DNA of 64,000 nucleotides, from contig NZ_CP095462.1 of assembly GCF_023022965.1 (NCBI RefSeq), forward strand, positions 248,001 through 312,000. Direction: 5' to 3'. A program made the translations under genes and the position numbers. The notes beneath the pieces are model-generated. The model was not told where the DNA came from and searched no databases. It saw only the letters and a list, made by a program, of their open reading frames with translations. The stretch's first letter is position 1; the number at the start of each line of letters is the position of its first letter. The stretch is from Ectobacillus sp. JY-23. GTDB lineage: Bacteria; Bacillota; Bacilli; Bacillales; Bacillaceae_G. Below are positions 57,410 to 61,101 of the stretch, piece after piece.

Positions 57410-58525
57410 TTATGGGATGTTTCTGAACAATAAATCACTTACTTTTTGAGCTGCTTCTTTTTGCATCCCTTTCACCACATGTGAATAAGTGTTAAGTGTA
57501 ATGCTCACATTTGTATGTCCTAGCCGTTCGGCTACTACTTTTGGGTGTACACCAGCTCTCAGCATAAGAGTAGCATGTGTGTGCCTTAAATCATGAAAGC
57601 GAATGCGAGGTAACTTGGACTCCTTCACATATGCAGACCATAAACTCCAAAGGCTTTCATTATGCAGTATTTTACCAGTTGTTGTGCAACAAACTAAATC
57701 TAAATCGTAATATGCAGACCCTTGACGCATTTTCTCTTTCAAGACTCGAACACGATGCTCTTTCAAGGCAATAAGAGTATTGGCGTCCAAATCAATAGAT
57801 CGCTGAGAGGATGCTGTTTTTGCAGTAGCCAGCAGCTTATTTTGTGCTGACAGTGTTTGGCGAATTGATATTGTCCCTTGATCAAAGTCGATATCCTGCC
57901 AACGAAGTCCTAATATTTCACTGCGACGCATGCCAGTTGTTACAGCTAATAAAAATACGATATAGTATCTACTCTTCTTAACTATATCTAAAAAGTGTTG
58001 TACCTGTTTTTCGTCCCATACTGTTACGGAACGCTTTTCCTCTTTTGGTTTTTCTACACGTAAAGCTGGATTATCTCTGAGATATTTAAAATTAACCGCT
58101 TGGTCTAGCACGCCTTTTAGTATCTTGTGTACTTTGTTCACGGTTGCAGGAGAATGAGTTTGCGCCATCTCGTTATAAAGTTTTTGGATGTGAGATGGCT
58201 TTAATTTTTCTAATGTCACTGCGCCTATTTTTGGTGTAATATAGGTTTGTGCATAACGTCTATAGAGTTCGTAGGAGCTCTCTTTTAAATTCATCTTCTT
58301 ACCTTCTAACCATAAGTCGATGAAAGCACTCAGTTTTTCTTTTGAAGGCTCCAAATAGGAGCCTTCTTCTATTTCTGTTAAGACTTTGTTCAAAGCAGCC
58401 TGCGCATCTTTCTGGCGCTTAAAACCACCTTTGTTTTTTTGTTTACGTTTACCAGTCACTTCGTCATATCCAATATCAACGACATACGTCCATGTTTTTC
58501 CTCGTTTATATAAATGTCCTTTCAT
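57410..58525 (-). CDS. int: phage tyrosine integrase
   Basis: A 371-residue tyrosine recombinase of the Int family. It has an N-terminal AP2-like arm-binding domain (HLYKRGKTWTYVVDIGYDEV), a SAM-like core-binding domain (residues about 60-160) and a catalytic domain with Arg in VTTGMRRSEILGLRWQDIDF, HxxR in RFHDLRHTHATLMLRAGVHP, His in ERLGHTNVSITLN and the nucleophile Tyr in NTYSHV. It integrates and excises the prophage. Its start overlaps the stop of the ImmA-like gene (ATGA type, 4 bp). Confidence 0.93.
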   Translation of the reverse strand: MKGHLYKRGKTWTYVVDIGYDEVTGKRKQKNKGGFKRQKDAQAALNKVLTEIEEGSYLEPSKEKLSAFIDLWLEGKKMNLKESSYELYRRYAQTYITPKIGAVTLEKLKPSHIQKLYNEMAQTHSPATVNKVHKILKGVLDQAVNFKYLRDNPALRVEKPKEEKRSVTVWDEKQVQHFLDIVKKSRYYIVFLLAVTTGMRRSEILGLRWQDIDFDQGTISIRQTLSAQNKLLATAKTASSQRSIDLDANTLIALKEHRVRVLKEKMRQGSAYYDLDLVCCTTTGKILHNESLWSLWSAYVKESKLPRIRFHDLRHTHATLMLRAGVHPKVVAERLGHTNVSITLNTYSHVVKGMQKEAAQKVSDLLFRNIP

Positions 58526-59010
58526 GCTGTATACTCCTTTATTGCCATTCTATTGCGAATTTGATTTAGTCGCTCTTTACACAGCCTTGGAGTTACTTTA
58601 AACATTTCGGACATATCAGCAATGATGTCTCGATTATTTTCAAGACGAATATATTGTAGCATATGTATTGGAATAGCTGCGCACTTGGTAAAACGTACCG
58701 CATCCCATTCTTGTAGCTGGCGGAAGGATTCTGGCATAATACCTTGGTTGCCATAATGCCGTAGCATGTGGCATAACTCATGAAAGAACACTTCACGCTG
58801 CTTTTGTGGAGAAAGTCGCTCATCAAGTACAATGATTTGGATAAAGTCGTTATCAATGCGATAGGACTCTGTCCGTTCGCGAAGCAATAGGACATTACAC
58901 TGATCTGCGATGTAATCAATATTTAAGTCTTTAGGTTGTTTTACTCCAATACGTTTATAGAAGGCTGTTATCCAGTCCTCCAGTGGAGTAGTAGGGAAGT
59001 ATAAGTGCAA
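58522..59010 (-). CDS. ImmA/IrrE-family metallopeptidase
   Basis: A 162-residue protein with a zinc peptidase motif HELCHMLRHYG (HExxH, residues about 93-97) and an IrrE-like fold: FYKRIGVKQPKDLNIDYIAD, RIDNDFIQIIVLDERLSPQK, FRQLQEWDAVRFTKCAAIPI, and a C-terminal helix-turn-helix-like segment (SEMFKVTPRLCKERLNQIR). In ICEBs1 and phi105, ImmA cleaves the repressor on induction. Here it should target the cI-like protein encoded 1.3 kb upstream. TTG 59010 is chosen because AAGGAG is eight bases away; ATG 59016 is only two bases from it. Confidence 0.85.
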   Translation of the reverse strand: MHLYFPTTPLEDWITAFYKRIGVKQPKDLNIDYIADQCNVLLLRERTESYRIDNDFIQIIVLDERLSPQKQREVFFHELCHMLRHYGNQGIMPESFRQLQEWDAVRFTKCAAIPIHMLQYIRLENNRDIIADMSEMFKVTPRLCKERLNQIRNRMAIKEYTA

Positions 59011-59150
59011 GAACATCACTCCTTTTATATAAATTAGAACGTATGTTCTTATTTTAATATAAAAATAAAACCCCGAAAAGGGGCTTTTGGAAAATATTGA
59101 TGTTTGGCTAAAAAGAATTGATTGAGCTTATAAAGAATTATAGAATGACA

Positions 59151-59179
59151 TTGATAATTTTATGTGCATAACATATACT
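59151..59179 (+). promoter_or_regulatory. promoter of the small RNA
   Basis: TTGATA (59151-59156), exactly 17 bp, then TATACT (59174-59179). This is a near-consensus sigma-A promoter, pointing into the structured RNA, with no protein gene on that strand downstream. Confidence 0.7.
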
Positions 59180-59185
59180 GAGAAT

Positions 59186-59260
59186 AGAAATAGTATTACT
59201 GGGCCGGGTGCTCCCCTCTGGGGTGCAGATAGACATAAATGTCGCCTGAGGCCCTTTTTT
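59186..59260 (+). ncRNA. structured small RNA next to the DUF3800 gene
   Basis: About 75 nt from the promoter to a T-run. The outer stem GGGCC/GGCCC (59201-59205 with 59250-59254) encloses a GC-rich hairpin (GCTCCCC TCT GGGGTGC) and a second hairpin (GACATAAATGTC), forming a three-way junction. The following TTTTTT makes the outer stem a terminator. It ends exactly at the 3' end of the convergent DUF3800 gene. Several candidate structured RNA motifs named DUF3800-I, -II and so on have been reported beside DUF3800 genes; this one fits that association. Function unknown. Confidence 0.65.
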
Positions 59261-60005
59261 ATTTTTTCCATTCATTACAATTTGAATAGCCATATCCTAT
59301 AATGTCTCCTGTTTCCGTAGCATAAAAACGCTTCTGTAAAATCTTAGAGAAAGTTCTGTCTTTACTTTCCAGTGATCTCCACATTGCTCCAGCTACTATA
59401 TCTGCAAGTTGAGCCCCTATTGTATATCTAGATACTACAACGTTTATGGTTGGAGAAAAAACAGTTGTATCAAAGTTGCGGAACACAGTATTATCCGAAA
59501 GAGCCTCTTTATAAGCTTTGAAAATTACTTCATCTTGATGTTTATCTTTTGTATCTATGAACACAATGATTGGCTCATGAATTTTATTTACAAAGAGAAA
59601 AGAATTAATAAGATACAGCAAGTGTTGGAAGTTTAGCTTGTAAATGGAATGTTTGTCCTTAGCTACATTATTAGTATAAGTAACATATTTGTTTTGCCCG
59701 CAAGCAAATAGTATACAATCACTTTCGGCGAGACAATTATATATTTCATTACGGTATAAAGAAATGTTTTCTTTATGTTCAGGTTTGAATGATTGTTTTT
59801 TTAAACTATACTTTATTTCCATAAAAACATCTTTGAAGTATTTGGCTTTAATATCATGGAACTTATTTTCTAAAGACTCTAGGCTTGTAGGCTTTAATAA
59901 TACACCACCTAGAACAAAATAAAGAGTATTTCCCCCGTCAGTACTTGGTTCTTTATCTTTTTTTAAAGTGTTAGTTCCAGCATCATCAATATATAGTAGG
60001 TACAT
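59259..60005 (-). CDS. DUF3800-domain protein
   Basis: A 248-residue protein with the DUF3800 hallmarks: N-terminal MYLLYIDDAGTN (in place of the usual YIDESG), GNTLYFVLGGVLLKPTSLES, PIIVFIDTKDKHQDEVIFKA and the C-terminal TIGAQLADIVAGAMWRSLES. The Asp residues in these segments resemble an RNase H-like active site. DUF3800 proteins occur in phages and mobile islands with unknown function. Its start lies 3 bp after the zinc-ribbon gene stop; no strong ribosome binding site is seen, so translation is probably coupled. It is convergent with the structured RNA. Confidence 0.8.
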   Translation of the reverse strand: MYLLYIDDAGTNTLKKDKEPSTDGGNTLYFVLGGVLLKPTSLESLENKFHDIKAKYFKDVFMEIKYSLKKQSFKPEHKENISLYRNEIYNCLAESDCILFACGQNKYVTYTNNVAKDKHSIYKLNFQHLLYLINSFLFVNKIHEPIIVFIDTKDKHQDEVIFKAYKEALSDNTVFRNFDTTVFSPTINVVVSRYTIGAQLADIVAGAMWRSLESKDRTFSKILQKRFYATETGDIIGYGYSNCNEWKK

Positions 60006-60008
60006 ATA

Positions 60009-60296
60009 TTAAAAAGGTAAATCATCATCAGATATATCAATCATGCCGGGGGTTCTTCTTTTAGAACTTACCAAATCTGCTTTTAAAAAGTGTGATTCAC
60101 TTCCACAATAGGGGCAATAAGCTGCTTCAGGTGGAATTTTTCTTCCACAATGTCCATAGTTAGTGCAATTGTTAACTAAAGGATAACCACAGTGTATGCA
60201 ATGTGTCATATCCACATCATCTATAAAACGATTTGTTTCCCTACAATGCAGGCATTTAATTAAATGTCCATTTTTGTCAGTTTCAAAATTACACAT
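60009..60296 (-). CDS. double zinc-ribbon protein
   Basis: A 95-residue protein with four Cys-X2-Cys units: IKCLHCRETN, MTHCIHCGYPLVNNCTNYG, HCGRKIPP and AYCPYCGSES. This makes two zinc ribbons in tandem, followed by a polar tail ending in ISDDDLPF, which resembles the acidic C-terminal tip of SSB-like proteins. ATG 60296 has AAAGGGGG upstream. It forms a two-gene unit with the DUF3800 gene, and so may be its partner or adaptor. Confidence 0.7.
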   Translation of the reverse strand: MCNFETDKNGHLIKCLHCRETNRFIDDVDMTHCIHCGYPLVNNCTNYGHCGRKIPPEAAYCPYCGSESHFLKADLVSSKRRTPGMIDISDDDLPF

Positions 60297-60310
60297 CAAT
60301 CATTCCCCCT

Positions 60311-60697
60311 TTATTTTTCCTGTTTTCTTTTCCTCTCCATCGCCTTATGCAGCACATAATCAAAGTGCTTCTTCAATTCCTCCACGTCCTCAGGTGATAG
60401 GTTTTTCCATTTATCTATGTCAAAGAAGCTCATGCTGGTGATTCCTAGTTTTTCTATGTAGGCTGTGATTTCGGCTAGGGAGTCGTAAGGTTTATTCTCG
60501 TCGTCTCCTGCAATTATATAGTTAACAGGTACGTCATATTTTTTTGCCAACCTCTTGATACTTTCAAGAGGAGGCTCATTACGTCCTTGTTCGTAGTAAC
60601 CGTAGCCACTTTCTGAAATCCCTAAGAAGTCAGCAACATCTTTTTGCGTGAGTTTGTGTTTCTTTCTCAATTCCCTTAAACGATCTTTAAGTTCCAT
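60311..60697 (-). CDS. cI-like phage repressor (XRE family)
   Basis: A 128-residue protein with an N-terminal XRE helix-turn-helix (LRELRKKHKLTQKDVADFLG, ISESGYGYYEQGRNEPPLES) and a C-terminal part with KNLSPEDVEELKKHFDYVLH, similar to ImmR/Xre-type repressors of ICEBs1-like and phi105-like elements. It should hold lysogeny and be cut by the ImmA-like peptidase. ATG 60697 has AAAGGAG upstream; 15 earlier codons are excluded. It is divergent from the cro-like gene, with operators between them. Confidence 0.87.
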   Translation of the reverse strand: MELKDRLRELRKKHKLTQKDVADFLGISESGYGYYEQGRNEPPLESIKRLAKKYDVPVNYIIAGDDENKPYDSLAEITAYIEKLGITSMSFFDIDKWKNLSPEDVEELKKHFDYVLHKAMERKRKQEK

Positions 60698-60739
60698 AAT
60701 AACTCCTTTCCGTGCAATACTGTTCTTCCAACTATTATA

Positions 60740-61101
60740 CAACTTCCAGTTGGGTATCTGAAAATAAAACGAATAAAAACAATAAAAAGTTGTTAAAATG
60801 TATTTACAAACAACAAAAAGTTGGGTAATATTAAGACAACAAAAAGTTGGGAGGTGTTGAAAGGAGAATGATTAAAAAGCGCTTCAAGTTAATCCAACTT
60901 AGAAAAGATGCAAATTTGTTTCAAAAAGACGTAGTATATCGTCTTGAATCTCAATATGGGATCTCTATAACAGAAAGCTATTATGGCATGATTGAACAAG
61001 GAGTTCGTACTCCGAGCTTAGAAATTGCACTGGCTATATCAAAAGTATTCGACAAAAGCCCTGAATATATTTTTTTTGGGGATTAACACAACAAAAAGTT
61101 G
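60740..61101. promoter_or_regulatory. five repressor operators, CAAC-N5-GTTG
   Basis: CAACTTCCAGTTG (60740-60752), CAATAAAAAGTTG (60780-60792), CAACAAAAAGTTG (60811-60823), CAACAAAAAGTTG (60837-60849) and CAACAAAAAGTTG (61089-61101). All have the CAAC/GTTG two-fold arms with a 5-bp centre. Four lie in the cI-cro control region. The fifth lies between cro and the next gene. The last three are identical. Confidence 0.75.
60868..61086 (+). CDS. Cro-like phage regulator (XRE family)
   Basis: A 72-residue protein made of one helix-turn-helix domain (FKLIQLRKDANLFQKDVVYR, GISITESYYGMIEQGVRTPS, LEIALAISKVFDKSPEYIFF). It is the first gene of the divergent early operon and so a Cro-type regulator. 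ATG 60868 has GAAAGGAG upstream; seven earlier codons that include an operator are excluded. Operator four lies 20 bp upstream of the start. Confidence 0.83.
   Translation: MIKKRFKLIQLRKDANLFQKDVVYRLESQYGISITESYYGMIEQGVRTPSLEIALAISKVFDKSPEYIFFGD

Follow-up and report, generated by a model that had tools for sequence, protein, structure and literature searches.

A prophage of Ectobacillus sp. JY-23 carries a compact module of three parts: a zinc-ribbon protein whose tail copies that of the host SSB, a DUF3800 protein with a predicted RNase HII-like fold, and a putative small structured RNA facing them from the opposite strand. Comparison across loci shows, at the level of sequence, that the RNA is a real conserved structure with covarying stems and that the parts recur together. 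Our favoured reading, to which we give a probability of about one half, is that they form a lysogeny cassette in which the RNA would be the structural partner of the DUF3800 nuclease, the SSB-tailed zinc ribbon would dock the complex to SSB-binding proteins, and the lysogen would be protected. The original prediction covered the RNA and the DUF3800 gene; the module reaches on to the zinc-ribbon gene, at 60299. Its features are given below, with positions counted within the window, by which we mean the whole stretch of 64,000 nucleotides that was analysed.

57410 to 58525, minus strand: tyrosine integrase at the prophage end (profile match)
59067 to 59087, minus strand: terminator-like hairpin, the first such site on this strand, past the RNA gene
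59151 to 59179, plus strand: RNA promoter, TTGATA-17-TATACT, 10/12 consensus positions (from sequence)
59186 to 59262, plus strand: small RNA, putative transcript with both ends inferred from sequence
59201 to 59254, plus strand: three-way junction of 54 nt (folding, alignment by helix, covariance model and pair statistics)
59201-59206/59249-59254, plus strand: outer stem P1, GGGCC/GGCCC, last pair G-A
59207-59209/59244-59246, plus strand: stem P1b
59210-59216/59220-59226, plus strand: P2, a GC-rich hairpin
59232-59235/59240-59243, plus strand: P3, a GACA/TGTC hairpin
59255 to 59260, plus strand: T-run of the RNA terminator, overlapping the DUF3800 stop codon (59259-59261)
59259 to 60005, minus strand: DUF3800 protein of 248 aa, predicted RNase HII-like fold (Pfam, AlphaFold model, Foldseek)
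60009 to 60041, minus strand: C-terminal tail IDISDDDLPF (exactly the final ten residues of host SSB) and stop codon
60009 to 60299, minus strand: zinc-ribbon protein of 96 aa (DZR; PF12773, E 6.5e-8)
60311 to 60742, minus strand: CI/Xre-type repressor (HTH_3 and RstR-like matches), upstream of the module genes and in the same direction

The original prediction had described a near-consensus promoter leading into a three-way junction that ends at the stop of the convergent DUF3800 gene, on a strand free of protein genes, and each of these elements is present as described: the list of open reading frames of at least 60 aa is empty on the plus strand over the junction, whose body lies past the DUF3800 stop codon. 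The strength of the window promoter is not significant by itself, being equalled in 15% of shuffles; at homologous loci TTGACA/TATAAT-like promoters occupy the same position, and those of the Streptococcus loci match the consensus at 12/12 positions. The RNA would start about 7 nt past the -10 box and end within the T-run, which is present on one strand only, promoters and RNA ends having been called from sequence alone at all loci. The hairpin at 59067-59087 would end the zinc-ribbon/DUF3800 mRNA after readthrough of the small-RNA complement and, since it is the first terminator-like site on the minus strand, that mRNA would include a complement to the RNA over its full length.

The module belongs to a clade of 11 loci, which comprises the window, the Streptococcus phages Clyde and Javan291, three viral contigs (L024, L025 and L026), Paenactinomyces guangxiensis (L032, the same locus as L028), Streptococcus infantis (L033), a Clostridium bin (L034), Streptococcus oral taxon 058 (L035) and S. 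hyointestinalis (L036). Six of the 11 are closely related Streptococcus copies, so that about five independent lineages are represented; the genes of L024 and L036 are near-identical. Every locus has a convergent promoter and a junction RNA, with closing stem, inner hairpins and T-run, at the 3' end of DUF3800, and in every one the zinc-ribbon gene precedes DUF3800 in the same gene order. Both the co-occurrence of the RNA with DUF3800 genes across prophages and the zinc ribbon as third component, as the original prediction had it, extend to the entire clade. In L025 the DUF3800 gene is frameshifted while the RNA is kept. In the flanking DNA examined at DUF3800 loci outside the clade there was no such zinc ribbon.

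DUF3800 of this form is rare: it was found in one of 397 genomes of the order, which is the window itself, and in none of 18 other genomes of the host family; searches of the host genus and family gave no DUF3800 relative, the best DNA match being a terminator, while plasmids yielded no relatives and single-protein pattern scans of viral and genome contigs no further loci. Elsewhere, two other DUF3800 genes of the same class (L042 and L044) are met at their 3' ends by convergent GC-rich sequence that is structured and has no Rfam match. In a Shapirobacteria bin (L037, 3001-3783), the 3' end of a distant DUF3800 gene likewise faces hairpin sequence and a convergent site resembling a TTGACA promoter; immediately upstream of that gene is a group I intron match.

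Folding energy by itself is a weak argument for the RNA. The window RNA folds mildly better than its shuffles (z about -1.5) and the same architecture appears in 18 of 1000 dinucleotide shuffles (1.8%); it is the comparison of sequences across loci that decides that the RNA is real. Folded without any alignment, the RNAs of the window, L025, L034 and L026 adopt the same three-way junction as their best structure; in the L032 RNA the junction lies within 1 kcal/mol of the best fold, and comes out best when the last bases are left off, and the Streptococcus RNAs have one additional hairpin inside the junction. When five divergent sequences were aligned by hand, helix by helix, compensatory changes were found in all three stems, with most pairs affected: in P1 at pair 3 (GC/AU/CG), pair 4 (CG/AU) and pair 5 (CG/UA/GC), and in P3 at pair 3 (CG/UA/AU/GC) and pair 4 (AU/CG). 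Four of the five sequences, and those of Streptococcus, keep the GGU strand of P1b, and L025 has GAU with a matching U opposite. In a model-based alignment of three sequences, both sides have changed at 6 of 19 pairs, against 2.0 in shuffles (0/500 as high) and 0 or 1 in slid structures; such an alignment leans to its own structure, and the hand alignment and unaided folds agree with it. The six Streptococcus rows retain 100% pairing, with two compensated pairs in P2. Pair counts were taken from the hand and model-based alignments, a MAFFT alignment of the five divergent RNAs having been excluded because it shifted P1 by one base. Covariation of the stems, the check proposed with the original prediction, thus supports the fold. 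The fold belongs to the plus strand, that of the RNA, because the G-U wobbles, present in each of the five divergent sequences, would turn into A-C mismatches if the opposite strand were folded. Variable loops, combined with kept stems and a kept GGU strand, form the pattern expected of a protein-binding RNA.

A covariance model (R1) built from L025 and L034 only, with the window left out, finds the window RNA at 59201-59261 with 27.9 bits (E 6e-5 over the window; next best 12.9 bits) and as the sole match in the whole 3.9 Mb genome (E 0.004), E-values that are rough given the short calibration. Across 398 genomes, model R2 returned 11 weak matches besides the window, with about 20 expected by chance at the cut-off; none of the 11 lies beside a DUF3800 gene and several resemble terminators. 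R1 and R2 are too narrow to pick up the copies in Streptococcus and L026, and score the Paenactinomyces one at about 10.7 bits only; these RNAs are assigned by position and fold.

The DUF3800 protein matches PF12686 with an E-value of 4.3e-16 (60.4 bits, against a gathering score of 21). Its AlphaFold model (pLDDT 85.6) gave 11 Foldseek hits in the PDB at E≤0.001, all of them RNase HII, H2 or HIII (best E 2e-5, TM about 0.4-0.5), and the protein is accordingly predicted to have an RNase HII-like (type 2 RNase H) fold; a PDB sequence search with the DUF3800 profile returned nothing relevant. The RNase H-like aspartates of the original prediction have their counterpart in D7, E63, D154 and D202, which are invariant in the clade, while D151 is N in the Paenactinomyces copy; these candidate catalytic residues were taken from the alignment, not from superposition. 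In its first strand, the protein has a D[DE]xG motif that resembles the DEAG motif of RNase HII. An RNase H fold for DUF3800 has been reported previously (PMC10910872; PMC12669027).

The original prediction made no mention of the copy of the SSB tail on the zinc-ribbon protein. A degenerate DNA pattern for the ending DISDDDLPF, including the stop, occurs in exactly two genes of the 3.9 Mb genome, those of the zinc ribbon and SSB, and the reversed control pattern in none. The zinc-ribbon partners in all relatives have an acidic tail ending in PF, that is, the acidic C-terminus and terminal PF of an SSB-type tip, and the SSB tails of three relatives' host genomes are of the same type as the partner tails. 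In E. coli, the partners bound by such SSB tips number more than 17 (PMC7913777). Outside the clade, the Latilactobacillus phage TMW 1.706 P1 (L072, 2167-3324) encodes an ImmA/IrrE-type M78 domain fused to a zinc ribbon with an EALPF tail, and DUF3800 is absent nearby.

In ten of the 11 loci the module is flanked by a regulator on one side and an integrase or recombinase on the other, some of these identities having been assigned by eye. The exception is the Paenactinomyces copy, which instead adjoins Wadjet JetA/JetB, and neighbours in relatives include Abi_2 (L033) and ParE (L023). This position in the lysogeny module, the Abi_2, ParE and single Wadjet neighbours and a weak PADLOC candidate match for relatives are suggestive hints of a defence role, and a part in defence or lysogen immunity is plausible. 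Between the RNA and the integrase the window has a gene for an M78 (IrrE-like) peptidase (58522-59019), and similar-looking genes, judged by eye, follow the module in L026 and L034. At three Streptococcus loci an element resembling Spy779816 (RF02589), below the gathering score, stands between the integrase and the RNA promoter (L022, 3871-3953; L023, 3875-3962; L033, 3872-3955).

In proposing a mechanism, we consider that a zinc ribbon with an SSB-like tail, an RNase HII-like DUF3800 protein and a convergent, separately transcribed small RNA would act as one cassette. Adjacency and co-occurrence suggest that the small RNA would bind DUF3800 and serve it as structural cofactor or as inhibitor, but not as a guide. 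The tail of the zinc ribbon would dock the complex to SSB-binding replication or repair proteins, and the nuclease would then act on RNA or RNA-DNA hybrid close to replication forks, or be released at such substrates; what the lysogen would most likely gain is protection from competing phages. A more specific version, in which the small RNA controls the nuclease, the SSB-tailed adaptor joins it to the replication-fork hub and takeover of that hub by an incoming phage activates it, seems to us unlikely in so exact a form. The SSB-like tail may also be a wider adaptor in lysogeny modules.

Of the alternatives to the cassette as proposed, the one that we would set marginally above that specific version, though still as rather improbable, is a toxin-antitoxin pair, type III in logic and not in family, in which the nuclease DUF3800 would be toxic and would be neutralised by direct binding of the RNA, transcribed independently of it. 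The nuclease-like predicted fold, the separate promoter and the location with other toxin-antitoxin and Abi genes in relatives all favour it, and retention of the RNA in L025 after loss of the DUF3800 frame would fit without being proof; however, type III antitoxins have tandem repeats, which this RNA does not, and it faces the gene convergently instead of lying upstream. Membership of the type III family was rejected: that family has a tandem-repeat RNA preceding a ToxN-like gene on the gene's own strand, whereas here a single junction RNA lies downstream on the opposite strand. We regard it as distinctly unlikely that the RNA serves as a cis-antisense regulator, fully complementary to the 3' UTR of the zinc-ribbon/DUF3800 mRNA and limiting its expression as in type I toxin-antitoxin control. 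The genes do converge, and transcription of the minus strand would meet its first terminator-like site only beyond the RNA gene, yet what is conserved is structure and not complementarity alone, and the wobble pairs suit one strand. Moreover, because RNAs of the Rfam class DUF3800-I lie downstream on the gene's own strand at two loci, where antisense pairing to that mRNA is impossible, the association of RNA with DUF3800 is in general independent of antisense pairing.

There is very little likelihood that the hairpin is a mere shared terminator of convergent transcription units. Its T-run ends at the stop codon, and the weak covariance-model matches elsewhere resemble GC-rich terminators; but the T-run is on a single strand, and a plain terminator was set aside on the grounds of a three-way junction in place of a simple hairpin, a dedicated promoter in homologues (up to 12/12) and covariation in internal hairpins that terminators do not need. 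Least credible of all is a guide role, with the RNA directing the nuclease to target nucleic acids. Some Cas12a2 loci do have DUF3800 proteins alongside (PMC10910872), but the RNA has no unpaired segment of guide length, and its leader is short, AU-rich and conserved among Streptococcus copies from different hosts; a guide-RNA nuclease of the OMEGA, Argonaute or CRISPR kind was rejected on the absence of a variable unpaired guide segment, the core being fully structured. The module unites a compact new RNA class with a fixed gene partner and a predicted protein fold, and the copied SSB tail gives it a first molecular address. It is found again in phages and bacteria that are only distantly related, and makes the function of a DUF3800-associated RNA directly testable in a minimal three-part system.

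Comparison with known systems begins with the proteins. RNase HII, H2 and HIII share the predicted fold of the DUF3800 protein but differ at the level of sequence (11-14% identity), and the likeness is one of predicted fold. PADLOC gave no match for the window protein; its PDC-M04A, a candidate system only, matches relatives weakly (E 2e-11 to 6e-7). Host SSB has the same ten C-terminal residues as the zinc ribbon, which, unlike SSB, bears the tip without an OB fold. As regards the RNA, the DUF3800 motifs were reportedly first described by Weinberg and colleagues in 2017, and in the literature searched we found no function for the Rfam classes named after neighbouring DUF3800 genes. At all 11 loci a structured RNA stands beside a DUF3800 gene, as in the Rfam DUF3800 motifs, and its stems covary. 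A match to one of those models, which the original prediction had envisaged, was not obtained: among 4227 Rfam families there was no DUF3800 motif match in the window at the gathering score and none in the region at E≤10, and the homologous RNAs of the other clade loci were likewise without an Rfam match. Since no Rfam model matches it, we assign the window RNA, by sequence, to a new class of DUF3800-associated RNA. DUF3800-VIII (RF03075) offers a close parallel in L054, where a minus-strand RNA ends exactly at the stop of a convergent DUF3800 gene, but its consensus folds into a single long hairpin, interrupted by an internal loop, and not into a three-way junction. A DUF3800-VIII RNA also occurs in Paenactinomyces (L032, 2387-2452), where it lies upstream of the intact zinc-ribbon/DUF3800/RNA module, about 250 nt from the zinc-ribbon gene, and probably faces the decayed remnant of another DUF3800 gene; in L051 the DUF3800-VIII RNA is 3' of the gene on the same strand. 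DUF3800-I (RF02969) similarly places a structured RNA directly 3' of the gene (L045 and L049), but on the gene's own strand, and its 115-position model is not matched by the window RNA. A 3'-adjacent RNA is thus common among these DUF3800 genes, in either orientation, and the window would add a class to those already known.
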